Origin: a virus
IMG/VR virus record: IMGVR_UViG_3300020203_000009
Coordinates: 1 to 64,000 of that record
DNA: 64,000 nt
Strand: one strand, 5' to 3'
Positions 2,756-52,630 of the stretch are shown here, one piece after another. The stretch's first letter is position 1, and the number at the start of each line of letters is the position of its first letter. Under the pieces are notes generated by a model. That model had not been told where the DNA came from. It ran no database searches and worked only from the letters and a program-made list of their open reading frames with translations. The position numbers were made by a program, and so were the translations under genes.

Positions 2756-4533
2756 TATAGTCCACCATGTACGTTAGAGCAGCCACCAAAAGCTCTTCTA
2801 GCGACGGTTAAATTTCCAAAATTAGTAGAATTTCCTAGAGAAGCAATAGTAAAAAATCCCATAGTTAACGAAGCAACTGCACCGTCAAGACCACCGGCAA
2901 ATACTGCTCTTAAAGAGCTAGCACATCCTGCCAACTGTGTTCTTGTTGCGGACAAATTGCCAAAATTGATAGCGTTTGCCGTAGTAGCTATGGCTATATA
3001 GTCTACGTTAATAACACCTGCGGCACCCCCACCACCAAATAAACCTCTGGTGGAATTAGACGCGCCGCACTCGTAATCTCTAGAGCCCGTCAGGTTGCCA
3101 AAGCTAATCGCGTTGCCAGTGGTAGCTATAGTAACGTAATCCATAACTGCGGTTTCAGAACCACTATTACCACCTGCAAATACACCGCGAGTAGTAGAGG
3201 ATAATGCTCCTGGACCTGACCTAGCAAGGGTTAAGTTTCCAAAGTTAGTGGCGTTACCGACTGTAGCAAAAGTTACGTAGTCTATTGTGTTCCTTACAAC
3301 GGCGGCGGCAGATCCTCCACCAGCGACGCCACGAGTAGAACTACCACACCCGGCGACATATAGCCTAGCCACAGTGAGTGTACCGAAGGAAACTGCGTTT
3401 GCTAGTGTTGCAAAAGACACATAATCTATTAAGTTTGAGTCAGAACCAGTAGAGCCGCCGATAAATAACGCACGCAATGAACTGGAATGTGCACCTAACT
3501 GTACCCTACCGGTAGATAAGGAGCCGAATGAAGTCGCATTTGAAGCCGTAGGTATAGTTATATGATCTATAACTACCGAGTTAGTTGGGATACCGCCTCC
3601 AAACAAACCTCTAGATAAGGGGCTACTACCGTTAAACCTTGCAACCCTAAACCAATTAGTTCCGTCAGAAACTAATGTTACGGCTGAAAAGTTAGTCTCT
3701 ATAAGTTCAATTGTAGTTGAAATCCCGTCTAAATTTCCAGACAGAATTACATGTATTTTGTTTGTAGCTGAAGTTCCCTTGTAGTCCTTGATAGTGGCTA
3801 TGAATTTATCAGTAGGAGCCGGTAGGATCACTTCAATTGCACCGGCAGAGGTGTCTATGTTTATAATTTTGCCATTATCTGTAGTTAAAACAGTATACGG
3901 GTTTATGGTGGTTTCTTTGATTGATATGTTGTCAAATTGCAAAGTAACAGGATCGCCGCCGTTATATAGCTGTATGAAAACATTCGAAGATAAGGCTGTA
4001 AATACACCCGTTGAAGTTACCCAGCCGGTAGTCGAATTTGTGGCAGAAAAAAGCAGAGTGCCGCTATTATTAGCACCGTTATAAACATTAATTGTCGTGT
4101 TTCCAGTTCCACTAACCATTCTAGAATCGGCAGAAAATGTGTATATTACTCCGGTTGCTAGAGAGGTAAGGGCTTGAGTAGCAGGTCCGCCGCCAGCGCT
4201 GTAGGTTTGCTGAATGACACCCGCAGTCCATGAGTTGTTAGACCCTAGAGTCCACCCGGTCGCATTGATATCTAAAGTACCGTTTGTAACTAATTCTGAA
4301 CCACTGGTTACATACCCAAGAAGTGTTCGGTCTTTAGTGCTGCTAACTCCGCCGCTTCCAATGCCTCCGCTTCCAACAATAGAGGCCCAAGCACCACTTT
4401 TGTATTGCCATAGTCCAATTTCTCTAATGGTACCGTCAGAGAAGTAAAAATCTCCGTCTACTGGCGTAGATGGGTCTGTTGCTTGCGGTTGCAATACAAG
4501 CCCTCTACTTCTTTGTTGAAAATCTATAGCCAT
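2755..4533 (-). CDS. Kelch-like repeat tail fibre with inserted carbohydrate-binding-like domain
   Basis: This 592-residue first gene of the fibre trio shares anchor, middle module and six terminal kelch-like repeats (about 312-585, ending CSNVHGGL) with copies 1 and 2. It carries about 140 extra residues (roughly 66-205) inserted between SSTK and YTVL, where the paralogues read SSTKTADYTVL. The insert (ELVTNGTLDINATGWTLG, later LQFDNISIKE) has the look of a CBM4/9-type beta-sandwich: an N-terminal NG-W motif and a closing FDNISI strand. The ATG at 4533 follows an AGGAAA ribosome site and the promoter element at 4550-4560. Binding to surface glycan is inferred. Confidence 0.8.
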   Translation of the reverse strand: MAIDFQQRSRGLVLQPQATDPSTPVDGDFYFSDGTIREIGLWQYKSGAWASIVGSGGIGSGGVSSTKDRTLLGYVTSGSELVTNGTLDINATGWTLGSNNSWTAGVIQQTYSAGGGPATQALTSLATGVIYTFSADSRMVSGTGNTTINVYNGANNSGTLLFSATNSTTGWVTSTGVFTALSSNVFIQLYNGGDPVTLQFDNISIKETTINPYTVLTTDNGKIINIDTSAGAIEVILPAPTDKFIATIKDYKGTSATNKIHVILSGNLDGISTTIELIETNFSAVTLVSDGTNWFRVARFNGSSPLSRGLFGGGIPTNSVVIDHITIPTASNATSFGSLSTGRVQLGAHSSSLRALFIGGSTGSDSNLIDYVSFATLANAVSFGTLTVARLYVAGCGSSTRGVAGGGSAAAVVRNTIDYVTFATVGNATNFGNLTLARSGPGALSSTTRGVFAGGNSGSETAVMDYVTIATTGNAISFGNLTGSRDYECGASNSTRGLFGGGGAAGVINVDYIAIATTANAINFGNLSATRTQLAGCASSLRAVFAGGLDGAVASLTMGFFTIASLGNSTNFGNLTVARRAFGGCSNVHGGL

Positions 4534-6957: not shown

Positions 6958-9900
6958 GCCCATCTTCTCATTGAGGCCTTGAACGTTCCTGAAAAACCTG
7001 TGCTAGAAGATGTGTACTGTAAAAGAATGTCTCCCGCTGAGAAAACCGCCGTTAGTGGAATTGCTGCACCATTTATCCCCACACCGCCGGTAGGTGTAGA
7101 TGTGTCTGTAAAGAATGCTGTAGCTCCATCGTGAGTGACGGTTATAGTTCCAACCCTTCTCTGTCCATTTCTTACGATTGAGTAATCAACTATTGCAAAT
7201 GGATAAAGTGTGGCGTCGTAAGTAGCTAAGGTATCTGCAGCGACTTGATTGTCATTAATCGTTAGTGGAGCTGATAGTCTCCCTATATTTAGCCCGTTTA
7301 ATGAAATTTGCTTTCCTGCGTTATCCCAAGTGAAATTAGAATCAGCTTCTAGGAAACCACCGGTACCGTTAAACTGAACTTCAGTTATATTACCCGCTGC
7401 TAATGCTCCGCCTACTGCTGATCCAGAATAATTAGGCAATCCTCCAGGACCACCAGAACTGTCTGACCATCTCTTAACAGAATAATTAATTAGCCCATCA
7501 ATCCCTGAGTTGCTAGCCGTGTATCTTAGTCTTACGGTTGATCCTGAAATATCTGCAAATAAATTAACCCCGGTATCACCGATAAATGCACTGGTTTTAG
7601 GATGGCTGATATCTGTTCCGTCAGTCGTTATTACGATACTGCCGGTTTCTTTGTTTACGCCTCTGACTACTGAGAAGTCAATAATCATGTTTTCAGAGCC
7701 AGCATAGTTAACTACAAAGATATTATCAGTTGTATTATCTATGATATCTGTTATCTTTAAAGAACTCTGCTCGTAATAATTAGCGCCGCTGAAGTAGCGA
7801 ACATAGTCGTTAAAATTAAAGGAAGATGTTGAATCGTTATAAACACCCGCAGTTCCTTCAAACCCAGCACCTTCGGTAGCCCTAACAATCTCACCACCTA
7901 CCGGGTCTATTCCGTTTTCAAAGATATCTTGAGCGGCCCACGCAAGAGCAACACCAACTCCTGAGACTTTATAAGCACGGTTGTTATTTACAGCTAGATT
8001 AGTAAACAACACAATATCATCGTCGGCAATCGTCACGTCATCAATTACAGCACTTACACCTGCGGGAAGGGTGGTGGAGACAGGGTCAATGAGATTTACC
8101 TTAGCTTCGCCTGAGCCGGAGCCGGAGCCGCCGGAGCCGCCTATAACACCTAGTTGAAGAATGTGATCAGATTCAATATCATCCATCACACCAGCGGTAT
8201 CAGTGATTAGAACCTGACCAAGAGCAATCCCTTTGGTGTATTTAGCTTTAGGAGCATTGGCTACAACGGCTTCAGACGTGGAGGCTGGAACTACAGAAAT
8301 AGTAGCTGTTATTTCGTTTTCTGAATTTGAAATGCTTGAGGTAAGGGTGACTGCGTACCAAATCGATTCTCCTGCGGGCAAGGCGAACGGAGTAAAGTTT
8401 ACACCTAAAGCGGTTACCCCGTCTGACTTGAATACATCACCAGTTGTAAAATCAACAACAGCACCCTCAAAGGAGAGTACCAAGTTCTTCATTGACTGGG
8501 TAAGTGTGATGCCGCTAGCAAGAATCGCGTCTGCACCGCTAATACGAACGGAGTCGCTTAGGGTTTCATGAGGAGTGATGCGCAATTGAGACAAAGAAGC
8601 AGCGGCAGCAGTGGCAACGCTGTAAAGAGACTTGTCTAGAGATTTAATCCCTTTAGTTAGGTTATCACCGTCAGTTAGGTAGTGATTAACTTCAGGAACA
8701 ACAGTAGCGTTTGTGTAATCTGGAGTACTGTCGCCGTCTCCTGAACTTCCAGTGTATTGAAGTACCGCTAGAGGTACTCCGTCTGAAATATGAAGGCTCT
8801 CGCCCTGTTCTAGCTCTGCACCTAGGAAACGTACATATACCCTTGGGATACCGCCATTGTCGTCTCTGAACATTAGCCAGTAAGTATTTGCATCAAATGG
8901 AACATCTTGTCTTGCTGCAATCTTGATGTGTCGGTCAGTTGATGGAGCTGCGTTTGTGCGATAATTGCCGTATGCGTATTTAGCGTCAATACCGTTGATA
9001 CCGGTAGATGTTCCAGTGAATACTGTCTTAAGGGTAACTTGACTTGTAGAGTCAATACTTAAAATCTGATAGTATTCCGTATCTTCATCAGAGCCAACCT
9101 TAATAAAATCATCTGCCTCTAGTAGGGTGGTCCAGGAGACTGAGCCTACAGATGTTACTACTCCAGAGCCGTTTGTGAAAATAAGCTGTGGAGTTATGTC
9201 TTGATTACGAATAATATTAATATAGGCAGCTTGGCCGTCTGCTAGTGTTAGATTAGTACCGGCGGCATATGCCTCTAGCTTATACTTAAGACGAGAGGAA
9301 ATAACCGTAAGGAAAATATTCTCATCCCAATTCATCTGGCCAGCGACGGATGAGCTATGGGTGATAGTTCCTTCACCTGTCATGAGAGTATTGGCTACAT
9401 CGTAACGAAGCCCCGAAATAGAGCCACCAATAGCAGGAGAATACCAATAATTAGTACCCTTGAGTAGTTTTATTTCTGTCTTAAGAGCGTCGTCGTTTTC
9501 TTTGAAAGAAAGAATCTGCTTATCTCCACCTCTAAAGGGAGAATTCAAGGAAGACGAACTTTGCCAGTAGTTTTCTACTCTGCCCTCTGAATCGTTAGTC
9601 CATGGATAATCATAAAAGGGGTCTGGAGTGCTTACACCTGCAGTTCCCAATCTGAATAGCATAGGGCGACGATCTTGGACAGATAGTACGTTGTTTGCAG
9701 TGTCAGTTTCTACTATAGAGATAGGGATAACGTTAGATGCGAACAAGGTAGAGGAGATTATGATTTGAAAATCAAGAGTCTCAAGGAAGGGAAGGGTTTT
9801 TACTATTTCAGCGCCTACGGTAGGATTCCACAAGTAGGTTTGAATAGCAGTAGAGTCGTCAACTTGACGAATAAACTCAAGCCCCACATAGTTTAGAGCA

Positions 9901-10337: not shown

Positions 10338-10371
10338 TTGACTATTTTTTCTGTATAGGTTATAATACCAC
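10338..10371. promoter_or_regulatory. Overlapping divergent promoters sharing one -10 region
   Basis: On the plus strand TTGACT (10338-10343), a 17-bp spacer and TATAAT (10361-10366) form a good sigma70 promoter for the plus-strand gene at 10388. On the minus strand the same bases read GTGGTATTATA (10361-10371), the recurrent extended -10 element, pointing at the large fibre gene starting at 10235. The two promoters should compete for polymerase. Confidence 0.75.
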
Positions 10372-10387
10372 TAACAGGAGACAGTTT

Positions 10388-11008
10388 ATGCAAATTAACA
10401 AAGAATTCTTGAAAAGCCTTAAACCCTGTGCTGACAGGTATAAGGTTTTTCTAGAACACCATGCTGATTTTAGCGGAAGTCTTAATGATTTCCTGGACTT
10501 ACCTGATCTTGACTACGACGATAAAATTTGGATTGCAAGGAAGGTATTAATCAGGAATCAACTGGTTAAATGGGCAACGCTATGCGCTGAAAGTGTATTA
10601 CATATGTTTGAAGATAAGCATCCAGGTGACAAACGCCTTAGTGATTGCATCAATTTTCTTAAAACCGTTAATAATTTCAATATCTTGACATATGCTCAAC
10701 TATTAGAGGTTAGTAGACATATAAGCGCTACCAATAGTGCCCGCTTTGTTTCCAGTGCTGCCTGTGTTTCCAGTGATTCCGCCAGCGCTGCCCTTGCCGT
10801 CTATTTTGCCGTCTATGCCGCCAACTATGCCTATGCTACCTATGCCACCGAAGCTGACTATGCTGCAGCCTATACCGCCCATTATGCCATCGAAGCTGCC
10901 ACCTATGCCACCGAATCTGCCAAGGATGCCGGTAAAGATGATGACGCTGCTCAACAAAATCAAGAAGCTCTTAACATTAAGTTTCTTAAGCAAGTGATTA
11001 GTTTGTAA
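10388..11008 (+). CDS. Ala/Tyr-repeat Imm5-like paralogue, dispersed copy
   Basis: This 206-residue protein belongs to the family arrayed at 44.6-49.3 kb. The N-terminal half (MQINKEFLKSLKPCADRYKV, then DKIWIARKVL and WATLCAESVLHMFEDKHPGD) is followed by an Ala/Tyr/Thr-rich helical tract (about 125-190, with AYATYATEADYAAAY). The end QEALNIKFLKQVI is shared with the array. The WAxxCAExVxxxFExxxPxD block plus Ala-rich tract resembles the Imm5-like putative immunity family. Function is unknown. The ATG at 10388 is chosen because AGGAGA precedes it and the family starts with MQINKE. It has its own sigma70 promoter and is read against the flanking structural genes. Confidence 0.8.
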   Translation: MQINKEFLKSLKPCADRYKVFLEHHADFSGSLNDFLDLPDLDYDDKIWIARKVLIRNQLVKWATLCAESVLHMFEDKHPGDKRLSDCINFLKTVNNFNILTYAQLLEVSRHISATNSARFVSSAACVSSDSASAALAVYFAVYAANYAYATYATEADYAAAYTAHYAIEAATYATESAKDAGKDDDAAQQNQEALNIKFLKQVISL

Positions 11009-26519: not shown

Positions 26520-27629
26520 TCACTTAAGCTTTCCAAAGATGAATACCCTCTCCCTGTTTTGAGCTAGTCCGAAGTTTTTACTATTTACCACTTCAAAATC
26601 TACATCATATCCCAAGCTACTCAAACCCTTCAATATTTCAATGAAGGTTTCACCCTTATTATGGTTTAGCAGTCCTTTAACGTTTTCAGCTAAAATGTAT
26701 TTTGGCTTATGTTTTTCAATAATATCAAAGACATTGAAGATAAGCTTGCCCTTCTTCTCATCCCCAAACCCCTTACGTAGACCGGAAATTGAAAGGGCCT
26801 GACAGGGAAATCCGAACGTTAAAAGATCAAACTGTGGTACATCATCCCTTTCTACTAACTTGGTTGCATCGTGAAAATTGGGAATGTTTGGATAGTGGTA
26901 TTTTAACACACTACTGGCATGTTTATCAAATTCACAGTGCCCAACTACCTTGAATCTATCTGTAAAGCCTAGCTCAGTCCCGCCGCACCCAGAGAAAAGA
27001 GACATAACTCTTATTTCCTCATTAGAAGGGAACATGGTTTTTAGTATGTGGGCAGATACGGGGCTGGATACGCCATTACCTGCCATTTTATATTTTTGAT
27101 TATCCGAAATTTTAACTACTTCACCTTTTTGATCAATGCCACTATCTAGATGGTTATCAGGGTAACCCTGAAGCCTACAGCATTCGGTAGGTGTAAGTTT
27201 GCGGATACGTAGTGTGTTGATTTTTAATGCTTTTTGACAGACCTTTAACGCTGGAGCTAGATTGTTCTTATCATAGACCTGGTATCCGTCTCTATACCCG
27301 TTCCAGTTCAGGTCTTCATCGCCGTGTCTTGGGTCAACTGTTCCGGCTATCACTACCCTGGCTACAAAATTTTGAGTACTCTGGTTACTACATCCATCAC
27401 CCGTACTAAGTGTGTTGGCCTCACCATTTACCTTACCTCTAACGTCTACATGCTTATCTCTAGTTGATTTAGAATAGGCTACGGTTTGCACAATATAAGC
27501 TTCTTTCGATATATTAGCACTTATGCAGTTTGAAACTTCATCATTTCTTGGAACCAGCACCTTACCTCTTCTTGGACAAAAATCTTTGCCGTCTTTCATA
27601 GATTGTTTTCTTACTTTTTTTAGCTTCAT
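26520..27629 (-). CDS. Circularly permuted C5 cytosine DNA methyltransferase (main part)
   Basis: This 369-residue protein has cytosine-C5 methyltransferase motifs in an unusual order. The N-terminal half holds target-recognition-like sequence (KDFCPRRGKVLVPRNDE) and then motifs IX-X (KLTPTECCRLQGYP and YKMAGNGVSSPVSAHIL). Motif I (SLFSGCGGTELGF), the catalytic motif IV (GFPCQALSISG, with the PCQ cysteine), motif VI (ENVKGLL) and motif VIII (QNRERVFIFG) follow, and the protein ends there. The usual order is I-VIII, target domain, IX-X. The missing linker after motif VIII is in the adjacent upstream gene (27666-27899). It probably modifies phage DNA against host restriction. Activity is uncertain because of the apparent frameshifts upstream. 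Confidence 0.85.
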   Translation of the reverse strand: MKLKKVRKQSMKDGKDFCPRRGKVLVPRNDEVSNCISANISKEAYIVQTVAYSKSTRDKHVDVRGKVNGEANTLSTGDGCSNQSTQNFVARVVIAGTVDPRHGDEDLNWNGYRDGYQVYDKNNLAPALKVCQKALKINTLRIRKLTPTECCRLQGYPDNHLDSGIDQKGEVVKISDNQKYKMAGNGVSSPVSAHILKTMFPSNEEIRVMSLFSGCGGTELGFTDRFKVVGHCEFDKHASSVLKYHYPNIPNFHDATKLVERDDVPQFDLLTFGFPCQALSISGLRKGFGDEKKGKLIFNVFDIIEKHKPKYILAENVKGLLNHNKGETFIEILKGLSSLGYDVDFEVVNSKNFGLAQNRERVFIFGKLK

Positions 27630-41783: not shown

Positions 41784-42047
41784 TCATGCGCCGTCGCCGT
41801 AGCCGTCTCCATCGCCACCATCGCCGTCTCCATAACCATCCCCATCCCCATCTCCATCTCCGTCGCCTTCGCCGTCGCCGCTGTAGCCAAAGCCATAGCC
41901 GTCTCCAAAGCCGTCTCCGTAGCCGCCAAAGCCGTCTCCGCTGCCGTCGCCGTAGCGGTCGCCGTCGTCTCCGTAGCCGCGAAAGCCACTGCCCTTGCCG
42001 TCGCCGCGGCCGACAGCGCTGTAAGCGTTGTCTAGCTCTTTGGCCAC
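41784..42047 (-). CDS. Gly/Asp-repeat low-complexity protein
   Basis: This 87-residue protein starts with GTG at 42047 (AGGAGAG upstream) and reads MAKELDNAYSAVGRGDGKGS before turning into DG, GDG and GYGDG repeats to the end. Six consecutive DG pairs occur near residue 60. It would be disordered, acidic and possibly calcium-binding or phase-separating; all of that is inference. The GGC/GAC/GGN codons make this the most GC-rich stretch of the window. A shorter paralogue follows directly. Confidence 0.7.
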   Translation of the reverse strand: MAKELDNAYSAVGRGDGKGSGFRGYGDDGDRYGDGSGDGFGGYGDGFGDGYGFGYSGDGEGDGDGDGDGDGYGDGDGGDGDGYGDGA

Positions 42048-42643: not shown

Positions 42644-42988
42644 TTATAGCTTCTCATAGTTTTTTTCAATGGCGTCTGCTATCTTATTGAAACTAGTAAT
42701 AGCACGATCGTTTAAATTAATTAGACTAGTTTCACCATCAACCTTCGAACCGTAACAACTAACCATTCCAGCCCACTCCATTACACTGTTTGGAAGGTGT
42801 GCAGACATTTCATCAAACCTACTAACATCGCGACTGCTATCGTAGTCACAAACACCCTCAACCAGTGCTAGGTTGCACAGTACGCCCAAACAACAATTTG
42901 TCCCATCTTTCTCTAAGTTATTAAAACCTTGTTTAAACTCTCCAGACCTAAGAGCATCTACCCACATATCAGCAATTTGTTTTTTCAT
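42644..42988 (-). CDS. Conserved phage hypothetical protein
   Basis: This 114-residue protein (WVDALRSGEFKQGFNNLEKD, CCLGVLCNLA, SVMEWAG, LINLNDRAITSFNKIADAIE) has the distinctive WxxALRSGxYxQG...CCLGVLCxLA...LND pattern of a small family common in phages. Its role is unknown. It overlaps the SET-domain gene by 20 bases. Confidence 0.75.
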   Translation of the reverse strand: MKKQIADMWVDALRSGEFKQGFNNLEKDGTNCCLGVLCNLALVEGVCDYDSSRDVSRFDEMSAHLPNSVMEWAGMVSCYGSKVDGETSLINLNDRAITSFNKIADAIEKNYEKL

Positions 42989-43382
42989 AAGCCTTCCTTA
43001 TTCTATAGGTTAAATCTTTAATAGCTACCTTAGGGTCATATCCGTAATCTATAAACAGTTGTGAGCCTTTCCTTATGTTACTATTTGCCCAGTACTCCAT
43101 GCATTTGTCCTTGTAATTGCAAGAGTAGTCTATATTGCTTTTTTCTTTATGGTTAAACAAACTACCAAACCCCAATGCCAGGCACTCTTTATTACCTTTC
43201 CAGATATATACGTATAGTTCTAAATACTTACCTGCGGTATCTTCTTGTTCTAAATACTTACCTGCGGTATCTTCTTGTTCTAATATAATAATAGGACTAG
43301 ACTCAATAAGCTCTCCAGCTTTTATGTCTTTATTAGCGTAAAGACCGCGCCCATATTTTTTAGTAGTTCTAATTTCAATCAC
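42969..43382 (-). CDS. SET-domain protein (putative lysine methyltransferase)
   Basis: This 137-residue protein has the SET signatures GRGLYANKDIKAGELI, SLFNHKEKSN (the NHxxxxN SAM-binding motif) and GSQLFIDYGYD (the catalytic-Tyr region). It is a minimal SET core without pre- or post-SET zinc sites. SET enzymes transfer methyl from SAM to protein lysines; the target here is unknown. Residues 36-55 hold an exact in-frame duplication of a ten-residue unit (EQEDTAGKYL twice). It lies next to conserved phage genes and the tRNA. Confidence 0.8.
   Translation of the reverse strand: MIEIRTTKKYGRGLYANKDIKAGELIESSPIIILEQEDTAGKYLEQEDTAGKYLELYVYIWKGNKECLALGFGSLFNHKEKSNIDYSCNYKDKCMEYWANSNIRKGSQLFIDYGYDPKVAIKDLTYRIRKAYEKTNC
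43217..43276. repeat. 30-bp perfect tandem duplication inside the SET gene
   Basis: Two identical 30-bp units (43217-43246 and 43247-43276) add ten residues in frame to the SET protein. The perfect identity points to a very recent slippage event. Confidence 0.9.
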
Positions 43383-43401: not shown

Positions 43402-43481
43402 TGGTACGACATCAGAGAATCGAACCCTGATTTCAAGTGTTTATAAGACACTTCCGGTAAACCACCAGCCCGCCATGTCGC
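43402..43481 (-). tRNA. tRNA, anticodon UAU (Ile, AUA codon), tentative
   Basis: An 80-base tRNA-like sequence with encoded CCA. The acceptor arm is GCGACAT/ATGTCGT (7 pairs, one G-U). The anticodon arm is AGTGT-CTTATAA-ACACT, and the T arm is CAGGG-TTCGATT-CTCTG. With U33 in place the anticodon is UAU, which decodes AUA. The D stem has a mismatch and position 8 is G instead of the usual U, so the body is unusual. An AUA tRNA would suit an AT-rich phage in a host poor in that codon. Confidence 0.75.
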
Positions 43482-43532: not shown

Positions 43533-43595
43533 TTAAACAACACAGTCAGCACAGGAAGCGTCACCAACCTCAACCGTTCTTATTCCACTTGGCAT
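43533..43595 (-). CDS. Possible 20-residue peptide after ligase
   Basis: A 20-codon frame (MPSGIRTVEVGDASCADCVV) begins in a TAATG overlap with the ligase stop. The coupling is suggestive but the length is too short to be sure. Confidence 0.35.
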   Translation of the reverse strand: MPSGIRTVEVGDASCADCVV

Positions 43596-44563
43596 TAGCT
43601 ATTCCTAGTTCTTTTGCTTTTAGCGGCGACCTTTAGATCTGAAATCATCTTTTCCATTGTGCAATCCTCTGCATTTAAATCGTCACGAAAGCGGAAAAAT
43701 GTAGGGTGGCGAAGTCTTGGTGGGCTGTTTTTTGTTTTTAAAACTTCCTGCGCCCAGACATCCAGAACTTTTCCTTCGTATTCATAAAAGTTTTTGCTCA
43801 TTTTAATTCTTAACTCGTCGTCAAAGCCGGAGGCAAATCCCACTTCCACAAGGGAGCCATTCTGATATACCGAAAGCGCTAGTGAGCCAATCATTCCCTT
43901 GTACTTGTTGGTCCCCTCTTTCCAACCAGACACTACTACTGAAACGTCATAGGACTTCTTCATTTTTGACCAAAATTTTCCGTAACCCATTCGAATGTCT
44001 TTTATGATTAACCCTTCGCCTCCTGCTGCTACCACTTTATTAAATTCTGCGGAGAATCCAGAAGTAATCCAAGGAATAGGCTTAACGAATTCGTTACCCA
44101 TTTTTTTAACGACTGCTTCTAGTAATTTCCTGCGCTGCTCAAGTGGGAGATCTCTAACGTCTTTGCCCTGAAACATCATGATGTCGAAAACCATATAGGT
44201 TAGGTTTCCAAGTTCTTTCTGTTTACAAGACGCTTCTGCCGCGCCGGAGTTCATTATTGAATTAGTATTTAAAAAGTCGCTTGAAACTATTTCTCCATCA
44301 ATCACAGTACCTTCTAGGCCCTCGTAATCAACCTTGGTGATGTGTGGGATATTGTCAGTCTTGTCTACCAGCAAACCGTCAGACACAGAGCCGCGCCTAG
44401 AAAGAAGTGTATGTCCTGACTTTCTTCTTTCGTATGGGCATGAGTCGAAATACATAACATATCGTGAGCCATCAATTTTTTCTTCAGCTATAAAATAAGG
44501 CTTATCAAAGTCTTCAGGAAGTTTTGCTGTACAACGGCTAGGGATACATAATTCTAATTTCAT
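43595..44563 (-). CDS. ATP-dependent DNA ligase
   Basis: This 322-residue minimal ligase seals nicks using an enzyme-AMP intermediate. Motif I is EEKIDGSR (the Lys is the adenylation site), then SRRGS, VIDGEIVS (motif III), GGEGLIIKD (motif IV) and FWSKMKKSYD (motif V). A C-terminal OB domain follows (VVVSGWKEGTNKYKGMIGSL). The length fits small phage and viral ligases with only nucleotidyltransferase and OB domains. It would act in lagging-strand joining with the polymerase at 52.7 kb. Confidence 0.92.
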   Translation of the reverse strand: MKLELCIPSRCTAKLPEDFDKPYFIAEEKIDGSRYVMYFDSCPYERRKSGHTLLSRRGSVSDGLLVDKTDNIPHITKVDYEGLEGTVIDGEIVSSDFLNTNSIMNSGAAEASCKQKELGNLTYMVFDIMMFQGKDVRDLPLEQRRKLLEAVVKKMGNEFVKPIPWITSGFSAEFNKVVAAGGEGLIIKDIRMGYGKFWSKMKKSYDVSVVVSGWKEGTNKYKGMIGSLALSVYQNGSLVEVGFASGFDDELRIKMSKNFYEYEGKVLDVWAQEVLKTKNSPPRLRHPTFFRFRDDLNAEDCTMEKMISDLKVAAKSKRTRNS

Positions 44564-44654: not shown

Positions 44655-45245
44655 TTAAACCCCACCTATTACTTGGTTGAGAAATTTAAGATTCAAGGCT
44701 TGCTGTTTAAGCTTGGCAGCAATGTAAATAGCATCTTCAACATCACTGGAAGCATTGGCGGCAGCAAAGGCAGCTTGGGCAGCACCTTCGACGGCATAGT
44801 GGGCAGCGGCGTTGGTAAAAAAGACATAGTCGGCATTAGTGGCAATGAATGCAATGGGGGAATCATCGGCAGCATCGCGGGTATAGCAGAAGGCAACACA
44901 CTTCGCTTTTACACGCTTTTTAACCTCTAATATTTGAGCATCTGTCAAGCTATCGAAATCATTAACAGTCTTAAGAAAATTGATGCAATTGCTAAGGCTC
45001 TTATCACCTTTATATTTTTCTTCAAAAATATGTACTACGCTTTCAATGCATAGCATTGCCCATTTAACTAGTTGATTCTTGGTTAATACCCTTTTTGCAA
45101 CCCAAACTTTATCGTCGTAGTTGACATTAGGTAAGTACAGGAAATCACTAAAGCTTCCGTCAAAATCAGCATTGTAATTCAGAAAATGTTCATATCTGTC
45201 AGCACAAGGCTCTAGGTTTTTCAGTACTTCTTTATTGATTTGCAT
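44655..45245 (-). CDS. Ala/Tyr-repeat Imm5-like paralogue, array copy 7 (last)
   Basis: This 196-residue protein has a conserved N-terminal half (MQINKEVLKNLEPCADRYEH, VNYDDKVWVAKRVLTKNQLV, WAMLCIESVVHIFEEKYKGD). Its Ala-rich tract (about 125-180) is shorter and less regular than in the other copies. It ends QQALNLKFLNQVIGGV. It follows the preceding copy by 11 bases without its own promoter, so it should be expressed from upstream. Confidence 0.8.
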   Translation of the reverse strand: MQINKEVLKNLEPCADRYEHFLNYNADFDGSFSDFLYLPNVNYDDKVWVAKRVLTKNQLVKWAMLCIESVVHIFEEKYKGDKSLSNCINFLKTVNDFDSLTDAQILEVKKRVKAKCVAFCYTRDAADDSPIAFIATNADYVFFTNAAAHYAVEGAAQAAFAAANASSDVEDAIYIAAKLKQQALNLKFLNQVIGGV

Positions 45246-45256
45246 AAATATCCTGG

Positions 45257-45886
45257 TTAAGCACTGATTGCTTGTTTCAAAAACTGAAGGTTAAGGGCTT
45301 GCTGTTTAAGACTGGCAGCGGCAGCATCTTCACCGTAAATGTCACAATAACCAAGGGTATCATCATAGGTAGCTTCGGCGGCGTAACACAAGACGTGGGA
45401 GGCAACATCGACAGCATAGGCGGCAGCATAGGAATCACAGTAGGAGACGTGGACAAGGGCGGCAACATGGGAAACATTGAGAGCGTGGGCAGCGTGGCCA
45501 ACAAAGATGTCAGGGTCGGTAGAAGCACGGGCAACAGCAAGGGCGAGATCTCTGTGCTTTTTAAGCTCTAATGCTTGATCAATTGTCAAGTTATTAAAAT
45601 CCTTAACTGTTTTAAGGTAATTGATACAATTAATAACATGTTTATAATCCGGGTGTTGTTCTTCAAAAATATGCACTACGCTTTCAGCGCATAGCGTTGC
45701 CCAGCTAATGGCTTGGTTCTTGTTTAATACCCTTTTTGCAACCCAAATTTTATCGACATATTCAAGATTGGGTAATTCCATGAATTCGCTAAGACTTCCA
45801 TCAAAATCAGCGTGATGTTTTAGAAAAACCTTATACCTGTAATAACAGGGTTTAAGGCTTTTCAAGAATTCTTTATTAATTTGCAT
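45257..45886 (-). CDS. Ala/Tyr-repeat Imm5-like paralogue, array copy 6
   Basis: This 209-residue copy begins MQINKEFLKSLKPCYYRYKV. A WATLCAESVVHIFEEQHPDY block and a diverged Ala tract follow (AAAYAVDVASHVLCYAAEAT). The end is QQALNLQFLKQAISA. The ATG at 45886 matches the family start; the reading upstream of it is not conserved. It has its own sigma70 promoter at 45905-45933. Confidence 0.8.
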   Translation of the reverse strand: MQINKEFLKSLKPCYYRYKVFLKHHADFDGSLSEFMELPNLEYVDKIWVAKRVLNKNQAISWATLCAESVVHIFEEQHPDYKHVINCINYLKTVKDFNNLTIDQALELKKHRDLALAVARASTDPDIFVGHAAHALNVSHVAALVHVSYCDSYAAAYAVDVASHVLCYAAEATYDDTLGYCDIYGEDAAAASLKQQALNLQFLKQAISA

Positions 45887-45904
45887 AAATCCCTCTCTCA
45901 AGCC

Positions 45905-45933
45905 ATTATCCCATATAAGACTAAGCTTGTCAA
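45905..45933 (-). promoter_or_regulatory. Sigma70 promoter of array copy 6
   Basis: TTGACA (45928-45933), a 17-bp spacer AGCTTAGTCTTATATGG and GATAAT (45905-45910) on the minus strand. The spacer is nearly the same in the promoters at 46600 and 48016. Confidence 0.8.
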
Positions 45934-45941
45934 GCTAAATA

Positions 45942-46571
45942 CTAATTAATCACTTGCTTAAGAAACTGAAGATTTAAGGCTTCTTGATTTTCAAGAGCAG
46001 CAATTTTATTAGAATCACAGACGGCATGGGTGGCATAGGAAGCATAGATGGCAGCTTGGGCAGCATGGGCGGCATAGATGACAGCTTGGAAAGAGGTGGA
46101 GGCAAAGGTGGCAGAATGGGCGGCAGCATGGGCAGAGGTGGCGGCATAGTTGGCAGCATGGGCGGTGGCATTGGTAGAAAAGAGAGTAGCACTGGCGGCT
46201 GCATGGGCAGCATCGGTGGCAGCAGAGGTGGCTATTTTATGCTTCTTAATCTCTAATGGTTGACAATTGATCAAGCGGTCGAAATCATTAATAGATTTAA
46301 GGTAGTTGATGCAATCACTAAGGCGCTTGTCATCTGGATATTTTGCTTCAAACATATGTACAACACTTTCAGCGCATAGCGTTGCCCATTTAACGGCTTT
46401 ATTTTTGTTTAAAATCTCCCTTGCAACCCAAATTTTATCGTCGTAGTTGACATTAGGTAAGTCAAGGAATTCACTAAAGCTTCCGTTAAACTCACCGTGA
46501 TGTTTTATAAAATGCTCATACCTGTCGGTAAAAAGGTTAATACTTTTCAAGAATTCTTTGTTAATTTGCAT
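45942..46571 (-). CDS. Ala/Tyr-repeat Imm5-like paralogue, array copy 5
   Basis: This 209-residue copy has the conserved head (MQINKEFLKSINLFTDRYEH) but has lost the Pro-Cys of the PCxDR motif, with LF in its place. The WATLCAESVVHMFEAKYPDD block is intact. Its tract is rich in A, H, S and T (AAHAAASATLFSTNATAHAA). The end is QEALNLQFLKQVIN. It has its own promoter upstream. Confidence 0.8.
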   Translation of the reverse strand: MQINKEFLKSINLFTDRYEHFIKHHGEFNGSFSEFLDLPNVNYDDKIWVAREILNKNKAVKWATLCAESVVHMFEAKYPDDKRLSDCINYLKSINDFDRLINCQPLEIKKHKIATSAATDAAHAAASATLFSTNATAHAANYAATSAHAAAHSATFASTSFQAVIYAAHAAQAAIYASYATHAVCDSNKIAALENQEALNLQFLKQVIN

Positions 46572-46599
46572 AATTCACTCCTGTTTTTACTCTTAACCC

Positions 46600-46628
46600 A
46601 TTGTTACATATAAGACTAAACTTGTCAA
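46600..46628 (-). promoter_or_regulatory. Sigma70 promoter of array copy 5
   Basis: TTGACA (46623-46628), 17-bp spacer AGTTTAGTCTTATATGT, and a weak -10 AACAAT (46600-46605) on the minus strand. It is clearly homologous to the other array promoters. Confidence 0.7.
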
Positions 46629-46638
46629 TATAATTCTA

Positions 46639-47301
46639 CTAATTAATCACTTGTTTTAGAAACTTAATATTTAAGGCTTCTTGACTTTCTTGAGCAGCAA
46701 TTTTATTAGAATCACTAGCATCGGTGGTGGCATAGAAGGCAGCTTGGACAGCATAGCACTCAGTATCGGCGACATCAACATCGATGTCATAGGCAGCAAG
46801 GGTGGCATAGGCGGCTTCACGGACAGCGGCACGGACAGCGGCACCGACAGCATCGGCGGCATTGGAGGCACCGGCAGCATAGGGGGCACGGGAACAATAG
46901 GCGGTAAGAGAGACAGCATAGGGGCCACCAGCGGCAACGAAACAAGCAGCTCGGGAGGCTTCTTCATGTCTCTTAATCTCTGATGCTTGATCATTTGTCA
47001 AATTATCAAAATCCTTAACTGTTTTAAGGTAGCTAATGCAATCACTAAGACTCTGGTTATCAGGGTATTCTTTCTCAAAAATATGAACAACGCTTTCAGC
47101 GCATAGCGTTGCCCACTTAACAGCTTGATTCTTGGTTAAAACTCTCCTTGCAATCCAGATTTTATCGACATATTCAAGATTGGGTAGGTCCAGGAAATCA
47201 TTAAGACTTCCGCTAAACTCACCGTGATGTTCTAGGAAATGCTTATACCTGTTGTCGCAAGGGTTTAGGCTTTTCAATACGTCTTTGTTGATCTTCATCA
47301 T
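46639..47301 (-). CDS. Ala/Tyr-repeat Imm5-like paralogue, array copy 4
   Basis: This 220-residue copy begins MMKINKDVLKSLNPCDNRYK. The WATLCAESVVHIFEKEYPDN block follows, then an Ala-rich tract with Val, Arg and Asp (AVGAAVRAAVREAAYATLAA). It ends QEALNIKFLKQVIN. The ATG at 47301 matches the spacing from GAGGGAAAG seen in copy 3. It has its own promoter at 47311-47339. Confidence 0.8.
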   Translation of the reverse strand: MMKINKDVLKSLNPCDNRYKHFLEHHGEFSGSLNDFLDLPNLEYVDKIWIARRVLTKNQAVKWATLCAESVVHIFEKEYPDNQSLSDCISYLKTVKDFDNLTNDQASEIKRHEEASRAACFVAAGGPYAVSLTAYCSRAPYAAGASNAADAVGAAVRAAVREAAYATLAAYDIDVDVADTECYAVQAAFYATTDASDSNKIAAQESQEALNIKFLKQVIN

Positions 47302-47310
47302 CTTTCCCTC

Positions 47311-47339
47311 ATTATCACATATAATACCAGACATGTCAA
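47311..47339 (-). promoter_or_regulatory. Sigma70 promoter of array copy 4
   Basis: TTGACA (47334-47339), 17-bp spacer TGTCTGGTATTATATGT and GATAAT (47311-47316) on the minus strand. The spacer also holds TGGTATTAT, a second possible extended -10, so it may be read in two phases of infection. Confidence 0.75.
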
Positions 47340-47349
47340 TATAATTCCA

Positions 47350-48006
47350 CTAATTAATCACTTGTTTAAGAAACTTAATGTTAAGAGCTTGTTGGTTATG
47401 CTTGGAAGCATCATCAATAGAATCCCGATCATCATAGGTGGCAGCATAGGTGGCATAGTCGGCAGCATAGTCGGCAGCATAGCTGGTAGCATAGGTGGCA
47501 ACATCGACAGCATAGCGTACTTCACGAGCGGCAGCAAAGACGGCATAGTAGGCAGCACGAGCAGCATTGGTGGCACCGATGGCGGCGATGGCGGCACAAC
47601 GGACAGCATAGGCAGCATCAGCGGCAGCTTCGATGGCAAAGCGGGCAGCATGGACAGCTCGGGCATCACTTATATGTCTCTTAATCTCTGATGCTTGATC
47701 AACTGTCAAGTTATCGAAATCATTAACTGTTTTAAGGTAGTTGATGCAATCTCTAATGCATCTTTCATCCGGGTATTCTTTTTCAAAAACATGTACTACG
47801 CTTTCAGCACAAAGAATTGCCCAGTTAATGGCTTGATTCCTTGTTAAAACTCTCCCTGCAACCCAGATTTTATCATTGTAGTCAAGATTAGGTAAGTCAA
47901 GGAATTCACTAAAACTACCGCTAAAATCAGCGTGACGCTCTAGAAAATGCCTATATCTGTCAACACAAGGCTCTAGGTTTTTCAGTACTTCTTTGTTAAT
48001 TTGCAT
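47350..48006 (-). CDS. Ala/Tyr-repeat Imm5-like paralogue, array copy 3
   Basis: This 218-residue copy begins MQINKEVLKNLEPCVDRYRH with the WAILCAESVVHVFEKEYPDE block. Its long regular tract (about 120-195) includes YAADYAADYATYAATYDDRD. The end is QQALNIKFLKQVIN. The DDRDSI-type end of the tract is shared with copy 1. GAGGGAAAG precedes the ATG and a promoter lies at 48016-48044. Confidence 0.82.
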   Translation of the reverse strand: MQINKEVLKNLEPCVDRYRHFLERHADFSGSFSEFLDLPNLDYNDKIWVAGRVLTRNQAINWAILCAESVVHVFEKEYPDERCIRDCINYLKTVNDFDNLTVDQASEIKRHISDARAVHAARFAIEAAADAAYAVRCAAIAAIGATNAARAAYYAVFAAAREVRYAVDVATYATSYAADYAADYATYAATYDDRDSIDDASKHNQQALNIKFLKQVIN

Positions 48007-48015
48007 CTTTCCCTC

Positions 48016-48044
48016 ATTGTTACATATAACCCTAAGCTTGTCAA
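48016..48044 (-). promoter_or_regulatory. Sigma70 promoter of array copy 3
   Basis: TTGACA (48039-48044), 17-bp spacer AGCTTAGGGTTATATGT and AACAAT (48016-48021) on the minus strand. Confidence 0.7.
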
Positions 48045-48054
48045 CCTTTACAAA

Positions 48055-48627
48055 CTACATGCCATTCTCAAAAAATTGAAGGTTAAGAGCTTTTTGGTTA
48101 TTCCCGGCAGCGTCAGCATCTTCACCGGTATCAGCGGCTGCAAGGAGGGCAGCATAGACGGCATAGTTGGCAGAACGGGCGGCATAGTGGAAGGCATAAT
48201 TGGCTGCATAGTTGACAGCATAGAGGGCATAATAGGCAGTATAGAGGGCATAGTGGACAGCACTGGCGACATAGTTGACTCCGCTAATATCTTCATGTTT
48301 TTTTATTTCCCACTTTTCAGTATCAGTTAAGTTATTGAAATCCTTAATAGACTTAAGGAAATTGATACATTTGCTAAGACGTTTATTGCCTGGATAATTA
48401 GCCTCAAAAATATACATAACACTTTCGGCACAGAGAATAGCCCAGCTAACAGCTTGATTTTTAGTTAAAACCTTTTCTGCAATCAAAACTTTATCTTCAT
48501 AACTAATAGTACCTAGGTCCAGGAATTCAATAAAATTACCATCAAAATCAGAGTGGTGTTCTAGAAAATGCTTATATCTATCATCACAAGGATTTAGGCT
48601 TTTCAGAAATTCTTTGTTAATTTGCAT
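48055..48627 (-). CDS. Ala/Tyr-repeat Imm5-like paralogue, array copy 2, altered C-terminus
   Basis: This 190-residue copy begins MQINKEFLKSLNPCDDRYKH with WAILCAESVMYIFEANYPGN. The tract is Tyr-rich (YALYTAYYALYAVNYAANYA). It ends QKALNLQFFENGM instead of the family's FLKQVI, so the last residues are lost or replaced, probably by a frame change near the end. It has no promoter of its own; the gap to copy 1 is 12 bases. Confidence 0.78.
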   Translation of the reverse strand: MQINKEFLKSLNPCDDRYKHFLEHHSDFDGNFIEFLDLGTISYEDKVLIAEKVLTKNQAVSWAILCAESVMYIFEANYPGNKRLSKCINFLKSIKDFNNLTDTEKWEIKKHEDISGVNYVASAVHYALYTAYYALYAVNYAANYAFHYAARSANYAVYAALLAAADTGEDADAAGNNQKALNLQFFENGM

Positions 48628-48639
48628 ATGAAGTCCTTT

Positions 48640-49323
48640 TCAAACACTAGTTACTTGTTTAAGAAACTGAAGGTTAAGAGCTTGTTGGCTATACTTGGCA
48701 GCATAATTAATAGAATCCCGATCATCGTAGGTGGCAGCATAGTTGGTAGCAGAGGTGGCAGCAGAGGTGGCAGCATAGTTGGTAGCAGAGGTGGCAGCAG
48801 AGGTGGCATAGCGTGCTTCACGAGCGGCAGCACCGGCAGCATAGATGGCAGCTTGGACAGCATTGGCGGCACCAGAGGCGGCATAGGCGGCACAGCGGAC
48901 AGCATAGGCAGCATTGGCGGCGGCATAGGTGGCATTGGTGGCATAGACGGTGGCATTGGCAGAAAAGAAAGCAGCATTGGCGGCCATTCCATGCTTCTTA
49001 ATCTCTAATGCCTGGGCATTTGTCAAGTTATTAAAATCATTAATAGATTTAAGGTAGCTGATGCAATCACTAAGACGTTTATCGTCAGGACGCTTATCTT
49101 CAAAAATATGCACAACACTGTCAACACAAAGAACTGACCATTTAACTAGTTGATTCTTGGTTAAAACTATCACAGCAACCCAGATTTTATCTTCATAGTC
49201 AAGATTAGGTAAGTCCATGAATTCGCTAAAGCTTCCGTTAAACTCACCGTGGTGTTTTAGAAAATGCTTATATCTATCAGTGCAAGGGTTAAGGCTTTTG
49301 AGTAATTCTTTATTGATTTGCAT
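48640..49323 (-). CDS. Ala/Tyr-repeat Imm5-like paralogue, array copy 1 (first)
   Basis: This 227-residue copy is the longest and leads the array. The head is MQINKELLKSLNPCTDRYKH with WSVLCVDSVVHIFEDKRPDD, a diverged WA-CAES block. The tract holds an exact repeat of 12 residues (SAATSATNYAAT-type units) encoded by a 36-bp tandem duplication, then DDRDSI. It ends QQALNLQFLKQVTSV. A copy of the extended -10 element lies just upstream (49348-49358). Confidence 0.82.
   Translation of the reverse strand: MQINKELLKSLNPCTDRYKHFLKHHGEFNGSFSEFMDLPNLDYEDKIWVAVIVLTKNQLVKWSVLCVDSVVHIFEDKRPDDKRLSDCISYLKSINDFNNLTNAQALEIKKHGMAANAAFFSANATVYATNATYAAANAAYAVRCAAYAASGAANAVQAAIYAAGAAAREARYATSAATSATNYAATSAATSATNYAATYDDRDSINYAAKYSQQALNLQFLKQVTSV
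48733..48804. repeat. 36-bp perfect tandem duplication in array copy 1
   Basis: Two identical 36-bp units (48733-48768 and 48769-48804) encode two identical 12-residue blocks of the Ala/Thr tract. Within each unit are shorter GGCAGCAGAGGT-type sub-repeats. This is direct evidence for length change by slippage or unequal recombination. Confidence 0.9.
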
Positions 49324-49332
49324 AAAAGCTTC

Positions 49333-49839
49333 CTAATACTTATTACTATTTATACCACTTCTAATAACTATATCAATTTCCTTGCGACAATAGCGAGTTA
49401 CGTTTTCAAAAACCCTTATTTTTCCATCCATGAAGCTTTCTAGAGCAGTTAACATGTCAATTCTGTCTTGAGCAGATACATAGTTAATCTGACGCTGCAA
49501 AAAAGCCTCTCGAACGTGAGTGCTGTCTTTCATCTTACTTTCTTTCAAAAACAAGGGATATAGATCAAGAATAGTCTCTGACTTGGCTTCCAATAGGGCT
49601 TTTTTGGCTTTGGTTATCTCATACCCTATAAGACTCAGATGCTTCCTAGCTTGTCTATATCCCTCGTTAAATGTGTATTCAAGTTCAGAATAGGTCGCAG
49701 GGTTTACTACCTTTGCCTCAATCAATCTGTGTTCAGCCTCTCTAATAGAGCTGATATCAAGACGTACTTCTGGCGTATTACCGAACGCTGGAATGGTTAG
49801 CTCTGCACGTTCGGTGTAATTAGAAGGTAGTGTTTGCAT
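49333..49839 (-). CDS. Hypothetical recombination-accessory-like protein
   Basis: This 168-residue helical protein (AKKALLEAKSETILDLYPLF, then VSAQDRIDMLTALESFMDGK) is coupled to the SSB-like gene by TAATG. Position and the late D-x3-ML-x3-FMDGKI helix recall recombination mediators such as UvsY, which work with the ssDNA-binding protein, but the similarity is only structural impression. Its last codons hold a promoter element (49348-49358). Confidence 0.6.
   Translation of the reverse strand: MQTLPSNYTERAELTIPAFGNTPEVRLDISSIREAEHRLIEAKVVNPATYSELEYTFNEGYRQARKHLSLIGYEITKAKKALLEAKSETILDLYPLFLKESKMKDSTHVREAFLQRQINYVSAQDRIDMLTALESFMDGKIRVFENVTRYCRKEIDIVIRSGINSNKY
49348..49358 (-). promoter_or_regulatory. 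Extended -10 element inside a gene end, upstream of the array
   Basis: The minus strand reads GTGGTATAAATAG within the last codons of the 49333-49839 gene, 25 bases before the first array gene. The -10 is TATAAA with the TGG extension. Confidence 0.55.
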
Positions 49840-50918
49840 TATCCCTCAAGAGATTTCAAGAAATCTTCATCACTCAAGCTATTAAGATCTTCCGCTGCCG
49901 GTGGAGCATCTTTCTTGGGAGTGTTTAGGACTTCTATTTTAGCCTTAGTGGCAGCTTTAGCTTCTAGGGCAGCTTTAGCTTCTAGGGCAGCCTTAGCTTC
50001 TAGGGCAGCTTTAGCCTTGCTTTCTGCGAGTGCCTGAGCCGCCTTGACGTAAGTATCTTCAGAATGATTAGACTGTTCTTCATCATCACCATTGTCTGAA
50101 GGTGTAGATCCATCTGAGTCTCCTAGGATTCGCTCCAAAACAATCGCGCCTTCCTGTTCGCTACGCTCGTAAGCAGCTACCATTTCAGCCACTTGTTCAG
50201 GATTGGGCATAGGATACATAGTGCTAAGCTCATAGGCCTCATCTGCTAGACGAGATAGAATGGCGGGAGTAAGAATGTGAGGCTCTGATTTTTCAACAAT
50301 GCCGTATTCTGCTGTTTTTACCTTTGTTTTAGATTCTGTTACTTGGTAAGCAGTGTCCCTGTCCATTCCAGAACGGTTGAAGTTAATAAAGCGTCCGTCT
50401 TCAACCGAAAGCGGGTCTACACCCTCTCCCTGAAGTTGTTTAACCAGTGCTTTAAATGCATTCATTGCACGAGAGCCAAGCTTTAGAAGACCGATCTTAC
50501 CGGAGGAATCCATGCCATTTGCATGGTGTTTGCTATCAACGTTGAAACGCTTAGTAGACTCTTCTAGATCTTTCAATTGCTTTTTAAGAGACTCAGGGAT
50601 GGGCGCTTTAGCTTCAAATAGCTGCCTGGCTTGTTTTTTAGCCTCATCTTTCTGAATCTTAAGACCTTCGGCTCGGTTATAGGCCGCACAGTCCCTTTCT
50701 ACCATTTTACTCCTGAAGTTAACGTCACGAGGTGAAACGAAAGGGCGCTGCCTGCCTTTTGTGTCCTTATAACCCCATACAACGCGATAGTAGACACTCC
50801 AATAACCCTTGTCTGCTAGTTTACCCATAGGAGGTAGGACTCGGAATAGGTTATCCCCGTCTTTAAATTTAAACACTTCTTTTTTGTCACCTGAATACCT
50901 TGCTTTGCCGACTTTCAT
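49839..50918 (-). CDS. ssDNA-binding protein (gp32-like)
   Basis: This 359-residue protein starts with a basic segment and FKFKDGDNLFRVLPPMGKLA, the typical start of large-phage ssDNA-binding proteins. A helical middle follows, then an acidic stretch (DNGDDEEQSNHSEDT), an Ala/Lys/Glu repeat (KAALEA three times, near 305-325) and an acidic end (LSDEDFLKSLEG). The acidic tail is the usual contact for replication partners. The heptad-like KAALEAK repeat before the tail is unusual. It would coat single strands at the replication fork. Confidence 0.8.
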   Translation of the reverse strand: MKVGKARYSGDKKEVFKFKDGDNLFRVLPPMGKLADKGYWSVYYRVVWGYKDTKGRQRPFVSPRDVNFRSKMVERDCAAYNRAEGLKIQKDEAKKQARQLFEAKAPIPESLKKQLKDLEESTKRFNVDSKHHANGMDSSGKIGLLKLGSRAMNAFKALVKQLQGEGVDPLSVEDGRFINFNRSGMDRDTAYQVTESKTKVKTAEYGIVEKSEPHILTPAILSRLADEAYELSTMYPMPNPEQVAEMVAAYERSEQEGAIVLERILGDSDGSTPSDNGDDEEQSNHSEDTYVKAAQALAESKAKAALEAKAALEAKAALEAKAATKAKIEVLNTPKKDAPPAAEDLNSLSDEDFLKSLEG

Positions 50919-51925: not shown

Positions 51926-52630
51926 CTATTTGATATTACCACGTTTTAATATTTCTGCCATTATCTGCGCAGTGGCTTGACTACTCCCTGAAAGCGCCCT
52001 TACACCTGGAATTTCAGGATCAACTAGGAGTCCAGATGCTTTATCTGTAACGATAGATCCGTAGTTAGATCCAAGATAAGCTCTAACTACATGGAAGTTT
52101 TCGCCAGGATATTCCTTTTTATAGCAAGCTGGATAGTAACCGCCATGTGTGTCTAGGTTTATTCCGTCGTTTCCAGAGGCTACGGTTAGTGTCATGCCTT
52201 TTTTCAAAAACCCAAATAGGTAAGATTTTTCCCTAGATTCGTAGGCATTTCCGCCTAGACTTAGGTTTAAATACTTTATTTGGGGATCTGAGTCAATATA
52301 CTCCAGTGCCTTGTAATACGAGTTGGTATTTTCTATGATCGAGTCTTCGTTTTTGTAAAACTTAATGCTCACAATGCAGTGAGTTTTAGGGTTAATACCC
52401 TTAGATATAATCCCAACAATGTTAGAGCCGTGACCGTGGTTATCTTCTGTTTGTCCTAGTGTGTAGTTGATAACACCGTTCCTGCACATGTAGGGGCTTT
52501 TGTCTATGCTTTTAATCACACCCGTATCAATAACGGCTACTTTGATACGGGTTTCAAGACTTTCGCTTGTTGCCACCGTTTCGCAGCAGATAAGAAGAAG
52601 TGTAGAAAGTATGTATTTTAGACTGTTCAT
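51926..52630 (-). CDS. Exported subtilisin-like serine protease
   Basis: This 234-residue S8-type protease has an N-terminal signal (MNSLKYILSTLLLICC). The catalytic triad motifs are IKVAVIDTGV (Asp), NHGHGSNIVGII (His) and LSGSSQATAQIMA (Ser), with the oxyanion Asn in TVASGNDG. It is shorter than most secreted subtilases and has no pro-domain, so it may be directly active. Export suggests action on envelope proteins or on surface receptors. It is driven by its own promoter (52637-52665). Confidence 0.88.
   Translation of the reverse strand: MNSLKYILSTLLLICCETVATSESLETRIKVAVIDTGVIKSIDKSPYMCRNGVINYTLGQTEDNHGHGSNIVGIISKGINPKTHCIVSIKFYKNEDSIIENTNSYYKALEYIDSDPQIKYLNLSLGGNAYESREKSYLFGFLKKGMTLTVASGNDGINLDTHGGYYPACYKKEYPGENFHVVRAYLGSNYGSIVTDKASGLLVDPEIPGVRALSGSSQATAQIMAEILKRGNIK
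51932..51942 (-). promoter_or_regulatory. Extended -10 promoter for the SSB operon
   Basis: The minus strand reads ACGTGGTAATATCAAATAGGAC at the end of the protease gene, leading into ATG 51918. It should drive the genes down to the SSB-like gene. Confidence 0.65.

Follow-up and report, generated by a model that had tools for sequence, protein, structure and literature searches.

Why should a virus carry seven versions of one small gene side by side, alike at both ends and different in the middle? The question is raised by a 64,000-nucleotide stretch of viral DNA (positions 1 to 64,000 of IMG/VR virus record IMGVR_UViG_3300020203_000009; referred to here as the window), in which seven adjacent open reading frames (ORFs) at 44655–49323 on the minus strand are shown by the ORF list and an alignment to be paralogues. 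An earlier note on this DNA had compared their products with Imm5-like putative immunity proteins and suggested that they diversify under selection, perhaps countering host toxins or defenses. We found that the array belongs to a family dispersed over the phage genome and, as a new observation, that near-identical phages differ almost solely inside the genes of this family, two unrelated pairs of phages doing likewise. Our preferred reading, to which we assign a probability of about 0.45, is that the genes form a multigene family, scattered over the genome and expressed independently of one another, of all-helical cytoplasmic binding proteins whose arms would set their specificity and which together would provide a changing repertoire of inhibitors.

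Anatomy of the array and copy number of the family

The array copies (Table 1) can be aligned without gaps over a 111-codon head and again over a short tail of 20 residues (QQALNxxFLKQVI), at 49–54% identity to copy 1. Between head and tail, the family proteins have a central tract of 59–96 residues that differs in length and sequence from copy to copy. The tract is 34% Ala and 11% Tyr, is also rich in Thr, Ser, Val, and Asp, and has Ala recurring at i+3, i+4, and i+7 along its length. The ORFs and the alignment thus confirm the tandem array of seven paralogues with a conserved head and a variable Ala/Tyr body that the earlier note had described, with some amendments. The PC-x-D-R motif that was thought to be shared occurs in most copies, but it is absent from copy 3 (LFTDR) and changed in copy 2 (PCYYR). 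The ending ALNxxFLKQVI holds generally but not for copy 6, which ends in LNLQFFENGM through a 1-nt frameshift; a sibling contig lacks the frameshift and reads NIQFLRMACSL. The start of copy 2 was placed at the ATG at 45886, and an upstream TTG was discarded.

The count of seven is right for the array, but it overlooked an eighth copy within the window and three more beyond it. These were recovered with a profile of the seven copies, the latter three at 122.2–124.07 kb of the same record. The full virus record is 124,069 bp long and terminates within a family copy, and with split matches joined it (G000) contains 11 copies. A sibling contig (L002/G002) that runs beyond the end of the record adds one copy in the opposite orientation, and another sibling, G003, has one copy that is frameshifted in the head, plus a fragment. 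Judged from these contigs, the phage carries no fewer than 11 copies and probably 12–14. A related phage, G004, has two copies, both at sites where the window phage has none.

Turnover of family genes between close relatives

Across 14.6 kb, sibling L001 and the window are 99.75% identical. Within this region L001 has one 12-nt in-frame unit fewer in the tract of copy 7 (at 48775), one 12-nt in-frame unit more in the tract of copy 5 (at 47482), and a cluster of changes at the 3′ end of copy 6, whereas over the 9.9 kb that follow the 4.7-kb array the two differ at about four single bases. Sibling L003 shows 25 differences from the window over 17.4 kb, and 23 of them lie within copy 8, where one patch has 12 changes in 44 nt and the other 11 in 29 nt (clustering P ~1e-31). 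Comparable events are seen in phages unrelated to the window. In the pair L102/L103, copy C is identical save for a head patch of about 75 nt, which resembles paralogue types A and D, and one tract base. In the pair L131/L133, near-identical phages with single-copy genes, one tract has a 45-nt tandem duplication that the other lacks. Within the window family the heads are mosaic by a Sawyer-type summed-square (SSCF) permutation test (p < 0.0005; third positions, p = 0.0005), and a longest-run conversion test was not significant (p 0.10–0.16). Differences of these kinds are the marks of repeat units being gained and lost and of gene conversion in patches, and we regard the anatomy and the turnover of the family as well supported.

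The earlier note had held that related phages with a single, invariant copy in a structural role would speak against its proposal. That is not the pattern seen: although a single copy is the rule among relatives, its tract differs in length even between the near-identical L131 and L133, and there is no sign that the protein is structural.

Selection and codon usage

The median ratio of nonsynonymous to synonymous substitution rates (dN/dS) in the heads is 0.21 (72 pairs), and the heads are under purifying selection. Copies 5 and 7 form the best-aligned tract pair, in which the ratio of nonsynonymous to synonymous proportions (pN/pS) is 1.5 (95% confidence interval 0.87–3.1), compared with 0.38 (0.24–0.59) for the heads of the same two copies. 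The diversifying selection invoked in the earlier note therefore does not apply to the heads, and the tract alone would fit it. The arm evolves either freely or under diversification, and the case for diversifying selection is suggestive only.

Across 21 phage tracts, 98% of the 961 Ala codons are the single codon typical of the phage concerned, compared with 47% in the heads, while other residues of the tract vary. This is most simply read as rebuilding of the arms by tandem duplication at a pace that outstrips the build-up of silent changes. The arms in L050–L133 use practically one Ala codon per phage (GCT only, GCC only, or GCG/GCT), unlike the heads.

Predicted promoters

We counted a promoter-like site wherever at least 10 of 12 consensus bases of the sigma-70 type occurred in the 75 nt before the ATG. 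Among 14 copies, 12 of the window family and two of G004, such a site precedes 11; shuffled sequences gave a mean of 0.4 and a maximum of 4 in 2000 shuffles, and only one of 25 other genes of the window has one. The three copies that have no site begin 11–13 nt after the preceding copy. With host-type sites at 11 of the 14, the copies therefore appear to travel with their predicted promoters, in the manner of morons.

Predicted structure

Our final AlphaFold2 model of copy 5 was built from 48 sequences and has a predicted local distance difference test score (pLDDT) of 79.5; it replaces a 13-sequence model with a pLDDT of 61. The head and the last helix are all-alpha and confidently predicted (pLDDT ~88–97). 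That the final helix is confident though the intervening tract is not suggests a globular unit from which a helical hairpin of variable length is extruded, and we take this predicted hairpin arm to be the tract. A fold search of BFVD returned three phage proteins with probability 1.00 and E values of 9e-3 to 3e-2; one bears the name Imm-5-like.

Kinship with Imm5_like proteins

Each of the eight window copies has PF21805 (Imm5_like) as its top-scoring Pfam family, a weak but genuine match (E 5.5e-8 to 1.6e-4). Four exceed its curated cut-off of 25 bits (27.6, 33.2, 25.2, and 28.7 bits), and the other four score 22.0–23.4. The match falls mainly on residues 55–92, and its solid part corresponds to model positions 7–44; past position 44 the window copies align only through low-complexity Ala, so that a full-length match fails. 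No NCBIfam family matched. The Imm5-like resemblance pointed out in the earlier note is upheld, since PF21805 leads for all eight copies and the most informatively named of the fold matches at probability 1.00, albeit at E 9e-3, is the phage Imm-5-like protein.

Scans of viral contigs and of a phage collection found the same head–arm–tail design in about 40 viral contigs, and Methanosarcina virus MetMV also encodes such a protein. Most viral relatives have a single copy, while tandem arrays occur in the unrelated phages L102 (four copies), L103 (three), and L113 (two). Certain phage relatives pass the PF14423 (Imm5) model as well. Cellular homologues were found in archaea, Chloroflexota, and Bacillota, with 1–3 per genome in 92 of the 501 genomes searched; they cover the PF21805 model from about position 2 to 128 with E values down to 1e-46, and they have a conserved C-terminal half and no repeat arm. 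We conclude that Imm5_like kinship is supported and that, by sequence, the family forms a branch of the Imm5_like superfamily that is specific to phages and set apart by its repeat arm. In two phage contigs (L056, 4183–5550; L057, 5156–7819) a long ORF, which resembles a polyprotein, joins unrelated modules, one of them Imm5-like, through recurring NEIEI(L/V) spacers.

Whether this kinship extends to immunity in the functional sense was tested through gene context. A search of genome contigs with the narrow family profile returned nothing, and a generic core query returned 26 loci. We read 12 cellular loci, and none has an evident toxin neighbor. Pfam searches of ten neighboring genes at these loci identified housekeeping proteins, namely an RFC-like AAA protein, a helicase, a radical SAM protein, PmbA/TldD, an ABC protein, an LiaF-like protein, a PAS kinase, and a menaquinone synthesis protein, and two had no match. 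The gene context thus did not show the association expected of immunity proteins, and the ‘immunity’ label is left without contextual support because no toxin neighbors were seen at the cellular loci read. ‘Immunity protein’ is here just a family name. In the literature we searched there is no paper on Imm5-like phage families and no experiment behind Imm5_like, which is a computational name.

Phage and gene neighborhood

The array lies between genes for a DNA ligase and a single-stranded DNA-binding protein (SSB; Table 1). Its neighbors also include an unassigned gene of 168 residues and a SET-domain gene, with an S8 protease and DNA polymerase III alpha farther out. The phage SET-domain protein (42969–43382, minus strand; PF00856, E 2.5e-13) is encoded two genes away from the array, and a subtilase-family protease (51926–52630, minus strand; PF00082) with a hydrophobic N-terminal leader lies within the replication region. 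Another low-complexity ORF near the array (41784–42047, minus strand) has Gly/Asp/Tyr repeats, and the strand opposite it is also open. A tRNA-Ile gene with anticodon TAT (43402–43481, minus strand) contains a one-base deletion and a substitution in sibling G001. A DNA methyltransferase (26520–27629, minus strand) is one ORF in the window and two in sibling G003. Three adjacent tail-fibre-like genes (30–4533, minus strand) are apparently paralogous, and G003 homologues match more than one of them at 45–48%. The stretch at 7245–8000 is the hypervariable end of a tail gene: G003 and the window disagree there at about 236 bases, compared with about 6 over the following 13 kb.

Among annotated phages the nearest is Myxococcus phage Mx1, with 30–36% for the SSB, the baseplate J-like protein, and the polymerase. 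A copy 5 query against the annotated phage collection gave no family match, and at that sensitivity Mx1 appears to be without the family.

Table 1 Family copies, predicted promoters, and flanking genes in the window
Feature	Position	Strand	Remarks
Predicted promoter of copy 8	10338..10366	+	TTGACT-17-TATAAT
Copy 8	10388..11008	+	206 aa; surrounded by minus-strand tail-gene block
ATP-dependent DNA ligase	43595–44563		array neighbor
Copy 1	44655..45245	-	196 aa; without own promoter; 11 nt after copy 2
Copy 2	45257..45886	-	209 aa, ATG start; PF21805 33.2 bits
Predicted promoter of copy 2	45905..45933	-	TTGACA-17-GATAAT
Copy 3	45942..46571	-	209 aa
Predicted promoter of copy 3	46600..46628	-	TTGACA-17-AACAAT
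Copy 4	46639..47298	-	219 aa
Predicted promoter of copy 4	47311..47339	-	TTGACA-17-GATAAT
Copy 5	47350..48006	-	218 aa; modelled with AlphaFold2
Predicted promoter of copy 5	48016..48044	-	TTGACA-17-AACAAT
Copy 6	48055..48627	-	190 aa; C-terminus frameshifted relative to sibling contig
Copy 7	48640..49323	-	227 aa
Weaker promoter-like site, copy 7	49349..49376	-	TTGATA-16-TATAAA
gp32-like SSB	49839–50918		array neighbor

Possible roles of the family

A cytoplasmic head, a variable arm, host-type promoters, many copies, and recombination between copies are together consistent with binding proteins of changing specificity that would be produced early in infection. In the scheme we propose, the host RNA polymerase would transcribe the family early in infection, and the proteins would bind host proteins such as abortive-infection toxins or other defense components, with the arm and the exchangeable patches of the head setting their specificity. 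Many copies and rapid turnover would then produce an inhibitor repertoire that changes across the phage population. Host toxins or other defense proteins seem the likeliest targets, and the suggestion in the earlier note that the family counters them stays conjectural: no toxin gene adjoins the array, as at the cellular loci read. A more ambitious version strikes us as rather doubtful: a phage variation system in which about a dozen inhibitors expressed by the host RNA polymerase, with heads that stay constant and helical arms that can be swapped, would track changing host defenses through repeat turnover and conversion between copies, by analogy with the antigenic-variation families through which parasites keep pace with immunity.

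Several results weigh against our proposal. No target, toxin, or defense system was identified for the family, and no PADLOC model matched it. The excess of tract pN/pS over 1 is not significant, and a codon-shuffled null gives ~1.06. The patches in copy 8 have no exact donor among the known copies, and strictly silent head columns (17 sites, low power) give no mosaic signal (p = 0.43). The tract, drawn as long helices, is modelled at low confidence (pLDDT 41–71), and searches of the PDB by sequence and by fold returned no similar solved structure. Every sequence used here is, moreover, a metagenome assembly. The window record itself, like three or more of the sibling contigs, breaks off inside a family copy, so assemblers evidently struggle here and mis-assembly is possible for the siblings of the window. 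As a general account, collapsed or mis-joined paralogues are nevertheless improbable, because unrelated phages sampled elsewhere show patches and tandem duplications as well, one of them in a single-copy gene, and the 12-nt insertions and deletions are far below read length and preserve the frame.

The main rival is a selfish or neutral expansion, in which recombination multiplies a cassette of promoter and gene that is put up with as a moron would be, while the tract drifts with no specific partner. Copies do lie at differing sites in both orientations with the promoter included, G004 has its copies at sites empty in the window phage, two copies are frameshifted (the G003 copy in the head and copy 6 in the tail), and the tract pN/pS is compatible with 1. 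Drift of this kind is hard to reconcile with purifying selection on the heads in all copies, a reading frame retained through all insertions and deletions in at least ten other copies, and a head-plus-arm design maintained throughout the viral contigs, and we think this explanation unlikely. Less likely still is a true polyimmunity locus that would neutralize Imm5-partner toxins (DYW deaminases, CdiA-type) from rival bacteria or phages and so shield the infected cell. It would account for the Pfam similarity to Imm5_like and Imm5 and for same-orientation tandem paralogues without intervening toxins, a hallmark of homogeneous loci (PMC3482391); against it stand the lack of any evident toxin neighbor at the 12 cellular loci read, the placement of the array between the SSB region and the DNA ligase, and the absence of Imm5 from the families listed as forming such loci (PMC3482391).

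We consider it equally improbable as mis-assembly that the Ala-rich arms form fibres or a coat in the cell or virion, with the copies tuning length. The spacing of Ala along the tract is that of helices which pack against one another through a face of small residues, and the tract has weak PHROG matches to tail proteins, but these are low-complexity (E 0.006–0.13), the host-type promoter sites are missing from structural genes, and copy number ranges from 1 to ~12 between phages. A diversity-generating retroelement mutating the tract was suggested by tract codons that are 92% NNY, as in targets of such elements. We consider this very unlikely: no reverse transcriptase was found in G000–G004 (five incomplete records), the variation is chiefly in length, and the GCG/GCT tracts of other phages make NNY no rule among relatives, the codon uniformity within each phage fitting repeat turnover instead.

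To our knowledge, phages usually carry a single version of an anti-host protein. If our reading of the family as a changing set of inhibitors is right, phages can maintain a variable repertoire within one genome, the proteins offer a lead to host targets not yet known, and the ‘putative immunity protein’ label would be called into question in many bacterial, archaeal, and phage genomes.

Comparison with known systems

The window copies share with PF21805 Imm5_like and PF14423 Imm5 the core WAxLCAESVVHIFE..P.D and an all-alpha prediction. They differ from the cellular Imm5_like proteins, which match the whole model through a conserved C-terminal half, in having only a short core and a variable repeat arm. 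The closest individual proteins are AZF89938.1 of Methanosarcina virus MetMV, which shares the head core and likewise contains an Ala-rich tract and a C-terminal helix, and A0A6J5RNF9 of an uncultured Caudovirales phage, which matches the predicted fold; each is one copy, compared with at least 11 here.

Homogeneous polyimmunity loci consist of tandem same-orientation paralogues with small gaps and a copy number that varies between relatives (Zhang et al. 2012, PMC3482391). The array has this layout: its paralogues follow one another without interruption, all facing the same way and separated by small gaps. The phage family differs from polyimmunity loci in that its copies are also dispersed and inverted, mostly have their own predicted promoter, contain a hypervariable repeat tract, and show no toxin association. 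Bacterial antigenic-variation families and gene accordions (csa1, S. aureus, PMC7360770) likewise have tandem paralogues whose copy number shifts between close relatives; the likeness is at the DNA level only; the phage family is cytoplasmic and viral and is not homologous to them. Phage morons offer the nearest parallel for copy 8, which has its own host-type predicted promoter inside a foreign transcription unit, amid oppositely oriented late genes of the tail block. Here, by contrast, an entire paralogous family is involved, and the phage that carries it is not known to be temperate. Besides the turnover between near-identical phages, we count as new the contrast in selection between head and tract, the predicted promoters of individual copies, and the viral distribution of the family.

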